A DNA stretch of 46,971 nucleotides from Candidatus Altimarinota bacterium. GTDB lineage: Bacteria > Patescibacteriota > Gracilibacteria > UBA4473. The position numbers and the translations under genes are program-made. The notes under the pieces are model-generated. The model saw only the letters and a list, made by a program, of their open reading frames with translations. It did not search any database and was not told the DNA's origin. The stretch is taken from contig JAIPIF010000007.1 of assembly GCA_021734785.1 (NCBI GenBank), forward strand, positions 1 through 46,971, in the 5' to 3' direction. Of this stretch, positions 20,097 through 24,627 are shown in pieces. The first letter of the stretch is position 1, and each line of letters opens with the position of its first letter.

Positions 20097-20348
20097 GCTC
20101 GAGTAATTTTTGAGGAAATGTGCAAAAATATTGCACAGACGCAAAACAAAAAAATCGTAGAACAAAAATTTTATTCTGACAAGCAATTAACTCGTTTTTT
20201 CATTGACCTCTCAAAGTTTGTGTTTTGTTTTTTTGTTCAGGCCTTGAGTGCAAATTGTTTTCAACAGTTTTTCCAAATCTTTTTCACATTTTTCCTCAAA
20301 AGCGAGACCGTATCTATCAGATTTCATTTTGTTTTTTGGGAAAGCTGC

Positions 20349-20354
20349 TAGTAT
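20349..20354 (+). promoter_or_regulatory. Extended -10 element before the small exporter gene
   Basis: TGCTAGTAT at 20346-20354 is an extended -10 box. It ends 8 bases before the ATG at 20363, which again implies an almost leaderless mRNA. The -35 region is weak. The rest of the gap from 20097 is A/T-rich without recognisable sites. Confidence 0.45.
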
Positions 20355-20362
20355 GCCGCTCG

Positions 20363-20860
20363 ATGTGGATGGCCCTTTTGAAAACCGGTCTTTTGGCAAC
20401 ACTGCCACTGGTAGAGCAGCGTCTCGCCATTCCGATGGGGTATTTTGCGTTTGGCCTCTCCATCTGGACCGCGACCGGCGTGGCGATTTTGTTTAACACG
20501 GTCTCCGTGGCAATCGTCCTCTGGCTCTGGCCCAAAATTGCAGCGCTCTGCGCTCGACATTTGCCTTTCTTTGATCGCATTCTTCAGAAAATTTTTGCCC
20601 GCACAAGAGCAAAAAATTCTCGAAAGATGAAAATTTGGGGGGCAATTTTTTTGATCTTTTTTGTAGCCGTCCCCCTGCCGGGCAGTGGCGGCTGGAGTGG
20701 CAGTCTGGTGGCGTGGCTCTTTGGCGTCCCGTACTGGCAGGCCATGAGACTCATCGCCCTGGGACTCGTGATCGGCGGAATCGTCGTGGCAGGGCTGACC
20801 GTGGGGGTGGACGGGATTTTGAATCTCTTCAGCGAAGTCGAACAGGTGGTGACACCGTAA
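20363..20860 (+). CDS. Small multidrug-export-family membrane protein (PF06695-like)
   Basis: With start at ATG 20363 the protein has 165 residues. It shows TLPLVEQRLAIPMGYFAFG near the N-terminus and VAVPLPGSGGWSGS in the middle, the two conserved motifs of the Sm_multidrug_ex family. Four or so membrane segments surround them. The family name comes from weak drug-export claims, and the true substrate is unknown. The last 32 bases overlap the converging tsaC-like gene. A second possible ATG lies at 20369. Confidence 0.8.
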   Translation: MWMALLKTGLLATLPLVEQRLAIPMGYFAFGLSIWTATGVAILFNTVSVAIVLWLWPKIAALCARHLPFFDRILQKIFARTRAKNSRKMKIWGAIFLIFFVAVPLPGSGGWSGSLVAWLFGVPYWQAMRLIALGLVIGGIVVAGLTVGVDGILNLFSEVEQVVTP

Positions 20861-21335
20861 AATTCCAGATTTCAGAGGCGGAGGTCTTAGGCAATTCTTG
20901 AATGCCTGGGAAATATTCGACGGCGTTGCCAAAAAAATTTTGCAACTCCTCGAGAGAAAATATCGGCGGCTGCCCTGTCCGATTGGCGCTGGTGGCCGTG
21001 ATCGGAAATTCAATTGCTCGGGCGACTTCCGGCACCGTGCACACACGAAACGCCACCGCATCCTCCGGCCAAAAATCAGAACGAGGCAGTTTGGTCGTGG
21101 GGCGAAAGATCGCCGTACGCGGTTTTTTGGTAAAGAAATCTGCTGGAAAATCTGCTGGAATCTCGGCAAATAATCGCAACATCTCAAAATCCCGCACCAT
21201 CAGAGAAAATTTCTGCTCAGGCGTTCTCCGTTTGAGATCAGAAAGTACCGGAAGTGTCGCAGCATCATCGGCCCGAACGCCGAGTCCAAAACTGGTGTCC
21301 GTGGGGTACGCGGTGATTTTACCGGGAGCAAACAT
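20829..21335 (-). CDS. tsaC: TsaC/Sua5-family threonylcarbamoyl-AMP synthase
   Basis: The 168-residue protein has the YrdC fold motifs AYPTDTSFGLG (8-18), LKRRTPEQKFSLMV (34-47) and PITATSANRTGQPP (111-124). The family makes threonylcarbamoyl-AMP, the first step of t6A37 modification of ANN-decoding tRNAs. The length suits the short TsaC type without the Sua5 domain. It converges with the exporter gene with a 32-base overlap. tRNA-Gly lies just beyond its 5' side on the other strand. Confidence 0.88.
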   Translation of the reverse strand: MFAPGKITAYPTDTSFGLGVRADDAATLPVLSDLKRRTPEQKFSLMVRDFEMLRLFAEIPADFPADFFTKKPRTAIFRPTTKLPRSDFWPEDAVAFRVCTVPEVARAIEFPITATSANRTGQPPIFSLEELQNFFGNAVEYFPGIQELPKTSASEIWNFTVSPPVRLR

Positions 21336-21358: not shown

Positions 21359-21386
21359 TTGACCTGCCCAGTCTTTTTCCTACAAT
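21359..21386 (+). promoter_or_regulatory. Promoter of tRNA-Gly
   Basis: TTGACC at 21359-21364, a 16-bp spacer and a strong TACAAT at 21381-21386 lie 13 bases before the tRNA. Confidence 0.7.
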
Positions 21387-21399
21387 CTACCCGCTCTTC

Positions 21400-21474
21400 G
21401 CACGTGTCGTATAATGGCTATTACCCCAGCCTTCCAAGCTGGTGATACGGGTTCGATTCCCGTCACGTGCTCCA
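21400..21474 (+). tRNA. tRNA-Gly (anticodon TCC)
   Basis: The 75 bases form a cloverleaf with acceptor GCACGTG/CACGTGC, anticodon stem CCAGC/GCTGG and loop CTTCCAA. This gives anticodon TCC (reads GGA/GGG). The T arm is ACGGG-TTCGATT-CCCGT, the discriminator is T, and CCA is encoded at 21472-21474. Confidence 0.95.
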
Positions 21475-21786
21475 GAAAAAACGCGAGTGCCCTTGTGGCA
21501 GTCGTGTTTTTTCTTTGAAAATGTGAAGAGAACCCGAGAGCATGCTCCGGGTTCGATATGAGGAGCAAAGAAAAGAAAGCGATCTTTGATCATTTTCTTT
21601 TCGTGCGACGAAATCACGACTGAGCGAAGCGAAGGAGTATTCCCGTCACGGGCTTAAGTTGACAAATCCACAAAAATAATTTACAAAACCTCCGTTCCAA
21701 AAAGGAAAATTCCGGTTTTCCCTTTCTGGAGAAAGGTATTGTTGTTTTACATTTTACAAATTTAAATTAAAGAAAGAGAGGTTTTT
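21475..21786. other. Gap between tRNA-Gly and the amber-split gene, with hairpins and a promoter
   Basis: No gene is visible in these 312 bases. A GAACCCG...CGGGTTC imperfect palindrome lies at about 21530-21555. A GAAAAGAAA/TTTCTTTTC inverted repeat follows at about 21572-21602. CGAAGCGAAGGAGT at 21624-21637 resembles the GCGAAGCG elements at 3.3-3.5 kb. From 21659 there is a promoter and a leader of about 93 bases holding two small hairpins (GGAAAA/TTTTCC 21704-21721; CCTTTCT/AGAAAGG 21721-21736). Confidence 0.6.
21659..21687 (+). promoter_or_regulatory. Promoter of the amber-split membrane-protein gene
   Basis: TTGACA at 21659-21664, a 17-bp spacer and TACAAA at 21682-21687 form a strong promoter pair. 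The start codon at 21787 is preceded by GAGAGG five bases upstream, a good Shine-Dalgarno sequence. Confidence 0.65.
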
Positions 21787-22080
21787 ATGAAACGAAAATT
21801 CATGTTGTTTCTTGTGATTCCCGTAATTTTAACCGCTGCGGGAATTGGGTCCTGGCTCATACCAGAATCTTAGTTCTTAGCCGAACTGTGGTACCTGGGA
21901 AAAGCTTTGGCAATACTGCTTGGAGTGTCTCTGCTCCTCTGGGGCCTCATTCTTCTGCTTGCTACTTTGCAAAAAGAAGATCGGTTTTTCATTCTTTGGG
22001 AGATTCGATCCGGGGTTGTTCTTTGGAAAAAAATCCGAGCCCCAAGATGGTGGCCAAAGGAATTACAAGAAAATTTTTAA
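21787..22080 (+). pseudogene. Small membrane-protein gene interrupted by an in-frame TAG
   Basis: ATG 21787, with a good Shine-Dalgarno, opens a 28-codon frame (MKRKFMLFLVIPVILTAAG and on, ending IPES) that stops at TAG 21871-21873. The same frame then continues for 68 codons (FLAELWYLGKALAILLGVSL onward) to TAA 22078-22080, directly before a terminator. Read through, it would be a 97-residue protein with two membrane segments and a Trp/Arg-rich basic tail (KKIRAPRWWPKELQENF). The second part has no ATG. It may be a pseudogene with a fresh nonsense mutation, a programmed read-through gene, or a 28-aa peptide gene plus a decayed tail. Promoter, ribosome site and terminator are all intact. Confidence 0.6.
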
Positions 22081-22090
22081 GAAACAACAA

Positions 22091-23404
22091 TCATCCCAAG
22101 CTGGACTTCTGCGGAAGTTCAGCTTTTTTTTCGTGTAATTGTACTTTCAGCTTCCCCTGCAGCTCCACACTCCGCGCGTACACCTGCTCGTACGTTTTTC
22201 CAGAAATTAAAAAAACCAGCACCGGTCGATGCCCGGATTTTGCCTGGCCAACGCTCTCTCCCGGCTTTGCCTGTGCCCGGATGTACGAGATGTCTGGGTC
22301 GTGCTGAACGGTGTCCCACCCACTGACCGAGTGAAAAATGCCATCGCGATCGGGGAAAATTTCCATCAGCGAGACAAACTTTCGTCGACGTCCTCGCGCG
22401 GAAATTTTGCGATTGAGCGTGGCCTGGATAAAAAGCTTGGACACGTCAATGCCGTATGCCTCACGGTACATCGTGGGTCGGTACCCACCCACTCGACCAT
22501 TGATTTCCACAATTTTGAGATCGCCGGTCTCTGTGAGCAAAAATTCAGAATGAAACGCGGCATTTTTCATCCCCAAGACATGAATCGCCGTGGAAGTGAC
22601 ATCGTGAATTTTGCGGACCAGTGTCGCCGGATGTTTGGACGGCAAAATGCGAAACGCAAGAAAGGTATCGTCTCGCCCCAAGTCCTGCGCCGAATAAATG
22701 TCTGCCACTGACGGCGCATGCCAGATGTCGTGTGATCCCATGAGAGAAAGAACCGCCAGCTGCTGGCCAGTAACCGTTTTTTCCACGAGAAATGTTTTGT
22801 GGGGATCGGGATAATGAAACTGCAGATTGAAAAACGAAAACGCATCGTACAGTCCCGGATCGAGATCTAAGTTTTTTCGATCCAGCTGCGCAAATGCGGC
22901 ATGCAGTTCTGATTCAGAGCGCACGCGCGTGACAAACTGACTTTTGACCCCAGAGATGGCCTTGAGATACACATCACCACCCAGAGCACGAAACGCCCGC
23001 AGGGTGGCCTTTTCACTTTTGACAATCCGGTTCGGGATATTTTCACGGAGGAAGTTGAAGGCATGCCGCTGCATGACTTTGTTGCGGGCACAGCAAGCAC
23101 TGTACAACGAGGGTGCTGGAATTCCCAGTTTGGTCGCCAAAAACGAGCGCTGCACCACGAAGTCATCGTAGTTGGTCACGACCGATTTGATGAGAAATCG
23201 CTTCCTCACTTGAGTACAAAATGTATCCACTTTTTCTGTGTCGTGCAGGGGGAGATGAAAAATTTCCGCGAAAAGTCCTTCGGGCACTGTCGGAGAATTT
23301 TCCGTGACAAGCAGGGGGGCAAACCCGAGCTCTCGTGCGGCCAGGATGGCTTCCTTTTTAAACTTGAATCCGACGAAGATGATGGCTTTGGCGCGTTCGT
23401 TCAT
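22091..23404 (-). CDS. ATP-grasp family protein
   Basis: The start at 23404 (MNERAKAIIFVGFKFKKEA) is preferred over an implausible longer frame, giving 437 residues. An N-terminal Rossmann-like part (AIIFVG...AARELGFAPLLVTEN) is followed by ATP-grasp features. These are a lysine in GGDVYLKAISGVKSQFV, and VEINGRVGGYRPTMYREAYG, the metal-binding EINxRxGG motif with conserved Glu and Asn. Such enzymes join a carboxylate to an amine through an acyl-phosphate, as in carboxylate-amine ligases. The substrate is unknown. The last codons lie inside a terminator hairpin of the opposite strand. Confidence 0.82.
   Translation of the reverse strand: MNERAKAIIFVGFKFKKEAILAARELGFAPLLVTENSPTVPEGLFAEIFHLPLHDTEKVDTFCTQVRKRFLIKSVVTNYDDFVVQRSFLATKLGIPAPSLYSACCARNKVMQRHAFNFLRENIPNRIVKSEKATLRAFRALGGDVYLKAISGVKSQFVTRVRSESELHAAFAQLDRKNLDLDPGLYDAFSFFNLQFHYPDPHKTFLVEKTVTGQQLAVLSLMGSHDIWHAPSVADIYSAQDLGRDDTFLAFRILPSKHPATLVRKIHDVTSTAIHVLGMKNAAFHSEFLLTETGDLKIVEINGRVGGYRPTMYREAYGIDVSKLFIQATLNRKISARGRRRKFVSLMEIFPDRDGIFHSVSGWDTVQHDPDISYIRAQAKPGESVGQAKSGHRPVLVFLISGKTYEQVYARSVELQGKLKVQLHEKKAELPQKSSLG
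22099..22131 (+). terminator. Rho-independent terminator
   Basis: AGCTGGACTTC-TGCG-GAAGTTCAGCT followed by seven T ends the plus-strand transcript of the amber-split gene. The hairpin also encodes the last residues of the converging ATP-grasp gene, whose stop is at 22091-22093. Confidence 0.85.
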
Positions 23405-23463
23405 TCTGGGAGAAAAACAGAACCGCTCGATTGTACGATTTTTTAGGAAAAGAAAAATCTTTT

Positions 23464-24627
23464 TTAGCCGAGCCACTGCTCTTTGAACATTTGAAATTTC
23501 TCCTCCACAATCGACTCGCGCATCTGTCGCACAAATCGCTGGATAAAGTGGACATTGTGGTGTGTCGCCAGTCGGATCGCCAAATATTCTCCCGCCCGGA
23601 AGAGATAGTGGACGTACGCCCGGGTGAAATTTTGGCAGACCTCGCAATCACAATCCGGGTCGATGGGAGCCGTGTCTTCACGAAATTCGGCATTGGTGAT
23701 GCGGAGCCTGTGGTCCGGACTGTTGGAGCAAAACAAAAGACCGTGTCGTGCATTCCGCGTGGGCGTCACGCAATCGAACGTGTCGATCCCCTGCTCCACG
23801 CCGAGAATCAGATCGTCTAGATCGCCGATCCCCAGGAGATGTACAGGTTTTTCTGAGGAAAGTCGGTCCATCGCGTGGGAAATAACGTCAAACATTTCTG
23901 TTTTATTCTTGCCCAAACTGCCGCCGATGCAGATGCCCGGCGTTCCTGAGCGCTGGACGAAGTCGAGGGAAATGTCCCGCAGATCTGGATACACGCCACC
24001 CTGAATGATCCCAAAAAGCGCCTGGTCGGATTTTAATGTGCGGTGCTCGGCGATACACCGATCCAGCCACCGATGCGTGCGCTCCATCGACTGACGGGTG
24101 TAGTGTTTGTCCACATGAGACGGCGTGCACTCGTCAAATGCTGCGATCATGTCTGCTCCCAGTTTGTGTTGGATTTGAATCGAAGATTCCGGCGAGAGAA
24201 ATCGCTCGTCGCCATTGAGGTACGAGTGAAATCGAACCCCTTCTTCGGTGATGTCCAAAACACGTTTTTTGGCATGCCGTCGCTCGCGCCCTTTGATTTC
24301 ATCAGCCACCGTCCCGTGTCCCATTGAAAAAACTTGAAATCCCCCGGAATCCGTAAACATCGGTCCATCCCACTGCATGAATGCGTGCAATCCTCCGAGC
24401 TTGGCAATCAGATCCTCCCCGGGACTCAGATGCAAATGGTACGTGTTGGCGAGCACGCATCCAACCCCAATTTTTTTGAGATCAAAAGGAGTCAGGGTCT
24501 TGACCGTCGCTTTGGTCCCCACAGTCATCAGACAGGGGGTCTGCAGATCGCCGTGTGCCGTGTGGATCGTCCCCGCTCGGGCACGGGAGTGCGAATCTTT
24601 TTTTTGAATCGAGAAAAAATCAGGCAT
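23464..24627 (-). CDS. tgt: tRNA-guanine transglycosylase (Tgt)
   Basis: With start at 24627 (MPDFFSIQKKD) the protein has 387 residues, typical of bacterial Tgt. It exchanges guanine-34 of GUN-anticodon tRNAs for preQ1, or for queuine in salvage variants. FTDSGGFQVFS carries the general acid Asp93. GIDTFDCVTPTRNARHG carries the nucleophile Asp. CDCEVCQNFTRAYVHYL gives the zinc ligands (three Cys, one His). The start overlaps the transporter gene upstream by 8 bases, indicating a queuosine salvage unit. No preQ1 synthesis or queA gene is seen in the window. Confidence 0.97.
   Translation of the reverse strand: MPDFFSIQKKDSHSRARAGTIHTAHGDLQTPCLMTVGTKATVKTLTPFDLKKIGVGCVLANTYHLHLSPGEDLIAKLGGLHAFMQWDGPMFTDSGGFQVFSMGHGTVADEIKGRERRHAKKRVLDITEEGVRFHSYLNGDERFLSPESSIQIQHKLGADMIAAFDECTPSHVDKHYTRQSMERTHRWLDRCIAEHRTLKSDQALFGIIQGGVYPDLRDISLDFVQRSGTPGICIGGSLGKNKTEMFDVISHAMDRLSSEKPVHLLGIGDLDDLILGVEQGIDTFDCVTPTRNARHGLLFCSNSPDHRLRITNAEFREDTAPIDPDCDCEVCQNFTRAYVHYLFRAGEYLAIRLATHHNVHFIQRFVRQMRESIVEEKFQMFKEQWLG

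Follow-up and report, generated by a model that had tools for sequence, protein, structure and literature searches.

An in-frame amber codon in a small membrane-protein frame of a Gracilibacteria genome, probably a young nonsense allele of an orphan gene

The window analyzed here, i.e., the whole 46,971-nucleotide stretch of a Candidatus Altimarinota bacterium contig, harbors, between a tRNA-Gly gene and a convergently oriented ATP-grasp ligase ORF (22091-23647, minus strand), a small reading frame at 21787-22080 that is split by a single TAG and is accompanied by the following features:

21400-21474, plus strand: tRNA-Gly (TCC), the upstream neighbor (ARAGORN)
21474-21514, plus strand: terminator-like hairpin following tRNA-Gly (inverted repeat; -24.1 kcal/mol, z -6.9)
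21659-21687, plus strand: candidate promoter TTGACA-17-TACAAA with a weak second hexamer (found by eye, missed by the consensus scan)
21775-21781, plus strand: ribosome binding site AGAGAGG, 5 nt 5' of the ATG (seen in the sequence)
21787-21870, plus strand: first part of the split gene, 28 codons, with the first hydrophobic segment (translation; hydropathy peak 2.27; codon score)
21871-21873, plus strand: in-frame TAG, the next base being T (sequence and translation)
21874-22080, plus strand: second part, 68 codons and TAA, with the second hydrophobic segment and a basic tail (translation; hydropathy; codon score)
22098-22132, plus strand: intrinsic terminator, a 12-pair stem and a T run (scan; fold -18.3 kcal/mol, z -4.1)

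The frame opens at ATG 21787 and closes with the TAA at 22078-22080, and no in-frame stop other than the TAG is present within its 97 codons, so that the layout originally described by the first-pass annotation (an amber codon after 28 codons, followed by 68 open ones) is recovered at the coordinates given above. The 28-mer encoded before the TAG is basic at first and then hydrophobic. The second part indeed lacks an ATG, as had been noted, though it does contain TTG and GTG codons, e.g., TTG 21907, which lies 33 nt 3' of the TAG and is preceded by GGGAAAAGC.

Two of the three expression signals that had been attributed to this gene hold, namely the ribosome site and the terminator, the stem of which (22098-22125) begins 17 nt past the TAA and overlaps the convergent ATP-grasp ORF at its 3' end. 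The third, an "intact promoter", is retained only in part: the consensus scan yielded none for the split gene, and what is left is the partial match noticed by eye approximately 100 nt upstream of it. A plus-strand match of the same scan (21359-21386) directly precedes tRNA-Gly; as the latter is followed by a terminator-like hairpin of its own, transcription of the split gene probably requires a separate promoter.

How far the frame stays open beyond the TAG was dropped as evidence, because such stretches are common in this genome, 14 of the 62 long (mechanically picked) ORFs being followed by an open run of 68 codons. Shuffles stay open in 4.8% of the cases, and not a single one out of 20,000 was both open and equally hydrophobic (the peak of the second part being 2.75 over 19 residues). 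Outside the hand-listed genes, this peak is reached by just one of the 570 open 68-codon windows, which is the second part itself, and inside those genes by one window of 325. The per-codon log-likelihood codon scores of the first and second parts (0.087 and 0.120, respectively) can be set against 0.159 for gene windows (sd 0.106, n = 170) and -0.047 for off-frame windows (sd 0.102, n = 850), 6.6-7.6% of the latter scoring above the split-gene parts, with these scores, as well as the stop counts, being rough, given that mechanical picking left some spurious, overlapping ORFs (e.g., 20348-21187) in the reference set. A score of 0.128 is attained by one antisense frame of the second part, which, however, contains three stops. 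A single-sequence AlphaFold2 model of the read-through protein (mean pLDDT 71.9, pTM 0.38) comprises helices at residues 2-24 and 29-83, broken near the stop, of which the second, at 55 residues, exceeds one membrane span; a helical model of this kind is uninformative for a fold search.

Taken with the unusually hydrophobic second half, the codon scores suggest that both parts were once one two-helix membrane-protein gene, the frame being open and of gene-like composition on either side of the TAG, as expected of a young pseudogene; we infer both its former expression and its loss of function. The true product might instead be a 28-residue one-helix protein, the second stretch being left untranslated or else re-initiated at TTG 21907 to give a 57-residue one-helix protein, and this possible, albeit rather unlikely, arrangement would agree with the AGAGAGG before the ATG, with the basic-then-hydrophobic nature of the 28-mer, with the TTG that has GGGAAAAGC ahead of it shortly beyond the TAG, and with TAG being an ordinary stop here. 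Gene-like codons and extreme hydropathy that persist up to a TAA beside a terminator, however, better suit one former gene, and homologues of either piece were not found (for the second part alone, in Pfam).

Relatives of the read-through protein were sought at increasing taxonomic depth. Among 19 other genomes of the family, there were only two matches (E 0.09 and 0.11), and among 353 genomes of the class, no homologue exceeded the chance level; the class search gave 15 further matches with E 0.0046-0.039, these being single-genome E-values for which chance matches are expected at such a level. Fourteen of these 15 were re-examined by tblastn, and no full-length relative was seen among the six whole alignments listed. 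At E 0.001, 379 genomes of the phylum returned only the window itself, while a search of the contigs of the named genomes gave one 15-residue match to a repeated motif of an unrelated protein, and the viral contigs, phages, and plasmids searched gave no match. At the DNA level, 21640-22140 matched elsewhere only twice in 60 genomes (its own included), each time over about 40 bases upstream of the gene. Profile libraries were equally silent: nothing exceeded the threshold in Pfam for the whole protein (DUF334, E 0.22) or in PHROGs (best E 0.055), NCBIfam and PDB had no match to it, and the second part alone, which was searched in Pfam only (the whole read-through protein having been used everywhere else), gave DUF308 at E 0.014, under the cut-off of that family. 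Within the relatives and libraries searched, the split gene looks like a lineage-specific orphan.

Comparison with the sister species (G001, with a listed completeness of 99%) places this orphan within a gap, since DNA similarity ends at 21481, just past tRNA-Gly, and restarts at 23473, within the terminal part of tgt. The unshared 2-kb segment in between adjoins the tRNA gene and contains both the split gene and the ATP-grasp ligase ORF; as similarity breaks off on both sides, the segment looks dispensable. The ATP-grasp ORF itself, which carries an L-amino acid ligase C-terminal domain (Pfam LAL_C2) and adjoins tgt, has a listed start that is probably too far upstream, because its residues 1-68 overlap tgt, and its sole match in the sister species covers precisely these residues. 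Its top-scoring relative in the family (G014, 42% identity) has a TAA inside the matched stretch.

The same sister species also serves as a measure of assembly quality. Comparison of its ORFs with the window gave 18 protein matches covering 17,095 bases, of which 17 are free of in-frame stops, and the lone match with three in-frame stops derives from an ORF running antisense through real genes; where these protein matches allow checking, then, the assembly looks clean. A single base decides whether the frame is split, and the assembly consists of nine contigs with an estimated completeness of 76.8%, both of which leave some room for the TAG being an error of assembly or consensus calling, or else an allele of a minority strain in a population that mostly carries the intact gene. 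The stop-free matches argue against an error-prone assembly, though a lone error or a mixture of strains would escape this check, and we consider an artefact or strain allele of this kind quite improbable.

Could UAG be decoded as sense instead? The genome encodes RF1 (475 bits against a cut-off of 423), the translation of which carries the PVT and GGQ motifs, and a second release factor as well, which its SPF motif marks as RF2. None of the 47 tRNAs of the genome (47 distinct genes, ARAGORN) has a CUA anticodon, though one might lie in the part missing from an assembly that is an estimated 76.8% complete, and in 64 sampled ORFs TAG is the terminator of 13 and TGA (UGA) of 20. A change of the genetic code was rejected on these grounds, both release factors being encoded, TAG and TGA acting as ordinary stops, and no CUA tRNA having been seen, and signs of UAG recoding or pyrrolysine decoding were likewise missing from the 47 tRNAs, the release factors, and the TAG usage. 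Among the tRNAs, ARAGORN types one (L049 170-244) as tRNA-Asp with anticodon ATC, beside one with GTC, and this gene is possibly mis-typed or simply odd.

Programmed read-through of the UAG, which would yield a short and a long membrane protein, has a natural appeal, as there is a single stop within an otherwise gene-like frame, but both the decoding machinery (RF1 intact, no CUA tRNA) and the surroundings of the stop speak against it. No RNA structure was seen at the stop itself (21860-21960, z -0.22), and three stretches near it are unstructured as well (z -0.12; 0.24 for 21874-21940; -0.75 for 21880-21960); the longer stretch 21787-21920 folds better than its shuffles (z -2.06), which leans towards read-through and is to be weighed lightly. 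As for the base following the stop, PMC5289835 associates a U in that position (+4U) with lower read-through in E. coli and yeast, and cites low read-through of UAG-U in yeast, whereas that paper's own analysis finds +4U to enhance termination mainly for UAA, which makes the U after the UAG of the split gene weak evidence of tight termination. A leaky context or stimulatory structure is not what was found here (UAG-U, z near 0 at the stop), nor did the searches return a homologue that could have shown the in-frame stop to be conserved, and programmed read-through seems very unlikely. A kindred proposal, that termination at the UAG is regulated or leaky and that this lineage-specific gene thereby yields a one-helix peptide together with a low level of a two-helix form, would amount to natural amber read-through in a bacterium with a standard code and an intact RF1, but the chances of it are slim indeed.

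All things considered, 21787-22080 is probably an orphan gene for a two-helix membrane protein that is present here as a nonsense allele, i.e., a young pseudogene, a reading to which we would assign a probability of roughly 0.6. According to this scenario, a lineage-specific gene for a two-helix membrane protein would have acquired a single nonsense mutation (the TAG) after codon 28; ribosomes would still initiate at ATG 21787 and be released by RF1 at the TAG, the product left would be, at most, a one-helix peptide of 28 residues, and the remaining 68 codons would be decaying. Counted in favor of the nonsense allele are the codon scores of both parts, which fall within the range of the genes of the window, the extreme hydropathy of a second part that lacks an ATG, the two-helix model, the combination of a present RF1 with no CUA tRNA and with TAG as a usual terminator, the lack of matches in the relatives searched, the fact that the segment is not shared with the sister species, the lack of a second in-frame stop, and the clean look of the assembly in the protein comparison. 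Counted against it are the fact that no intact homologue showing both parts as one gene was found, the commonness of open stretches after stops (14 of 62), the approximately 7% of off-frame windows that match the codon scores (with training ORFs that are partly spurious), the resemblance of the first 28 codons alone to a complete one-helix small protein, the 55-residue second helix of the model, and the chance that the TAG is a consensus error. Of the two explanations offered initially, read-through or a very young pseudogene, it is the latter that is better supported, while the release factor, tRNA set, TAG usage, and RNA structure lend little to the former.

Pseudogenes make up about 5-10% of the coding genes in two Parcubacteria genomes, according to PMC11188291, which would make a young pseudogene an ordinary case here. 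Like recent nonsense pseudogenes of small-genome bacteria, the split gene has one stop in an open, gene-like frame, is lineage-specific, and lies between synteny breaks; unlike the known ones, it is without a known intact homologue, so that a former gene cannot be proved. With programmed stop-codon read-through genes it shares a short and a long frame parted by one stop, but it differs from them in having neither a stimulatory structure nor a suppressor tRNA, and in the U that follows the stop. A stop codon in frame inside a gene is also what recoded genetic codes present, UAG being recoded to glutamine in some phages. In Gracilibacteria and Absconditabacteria, as stated in PMC8629427, it is UGA that is recoded, to glycine. 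In contrast to such codes, both UAG (13 of 64) and UGA (20 of 64) end ORFs in the genome studied here, both release factors are present, and a UAG-reading tRNA is absent. Newly interrupted orphan genes are commonplace, and this one, as it stands, matters little; the practical lesson is, rather, that tRNA content, release factors, and sister genomes ought to be checked for an amber-split frame before read-through is proposed.

A feature of probably greater interest lies just upstream of the split gene, between it and tRNA-Gly, where a dispersed structured element has one of its copies (21476-21655); the element was found at these loci:

21476-21655 of the window; L109, L110, L021, L028, L029, L112, L115, L116, and L117-L132: tRNA-trailing element

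Parts of the copy in the window match two other sites in its own genome and sites in the sister species and two further genomes (G002 and G003). It holds a hairpin motif, GAACC-N-GGTTCGATAYGA, along with additional hairpins, and repeats the 3' end of tRNA-Gly at 15 of 16 bases. Copies of the element are located downstream of several tRNA genes, and many of them terminate in a repeat of the 3' end of the tRNA concerned, from the T loop on. Across the units of the window and of the six loci searched, no Rfam family scored at its cut-off, and a literature search, at the level of titles and the opening lines of abstracts, brought up no description of a tRNA-trailing element of this kind.

A strict pattern, GAACC-N(1-25)-GGTTCGATACGA, which the copy in the window misses by one base, occurs at 16 places in 11 of the 341 class genomes (the reversed control occurring at none among the matches listed), and in no further genome of a phylum sample of 239. 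Thirteen of these 16 places lie 6-120 bases downstream of a same-strand tRNA gene, eight amino-acid types being represented, and the other three have no upstream tRNA within 1,500, 1,500, and 65 bases, respectively. At seven of the 13, 18 bases of the tRNA's own 3' end recur without mismatch within the following 250 bases, and the own tRNA end beats the tRNA end of every other unit at 11 of them, failing at two (L120 and L126). In the genome of the window, the 3' end recurs for five of the 47 tRNAs, with no more than one mismatch, within 300 bases downstream (some of the stretches being shorter), compared with nine positives in 2160 control tests employing the ends of other tRNAs, the control matches listed coming from similar serine tRNAs and a true tandem tRNA-Val. 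The element may be either a structured trailer RNA or a small mobile element duplicating the tRNA that it targets. Tandem double units were recognized by eye at L021, L028, L110, and L116, and, near a tRNA-Trp of the same genome as the window, there is a SAM riboswitch-like match (L129 1854-1947, plus strand) that scores 44.1 bits against a gathering score of 44.4.
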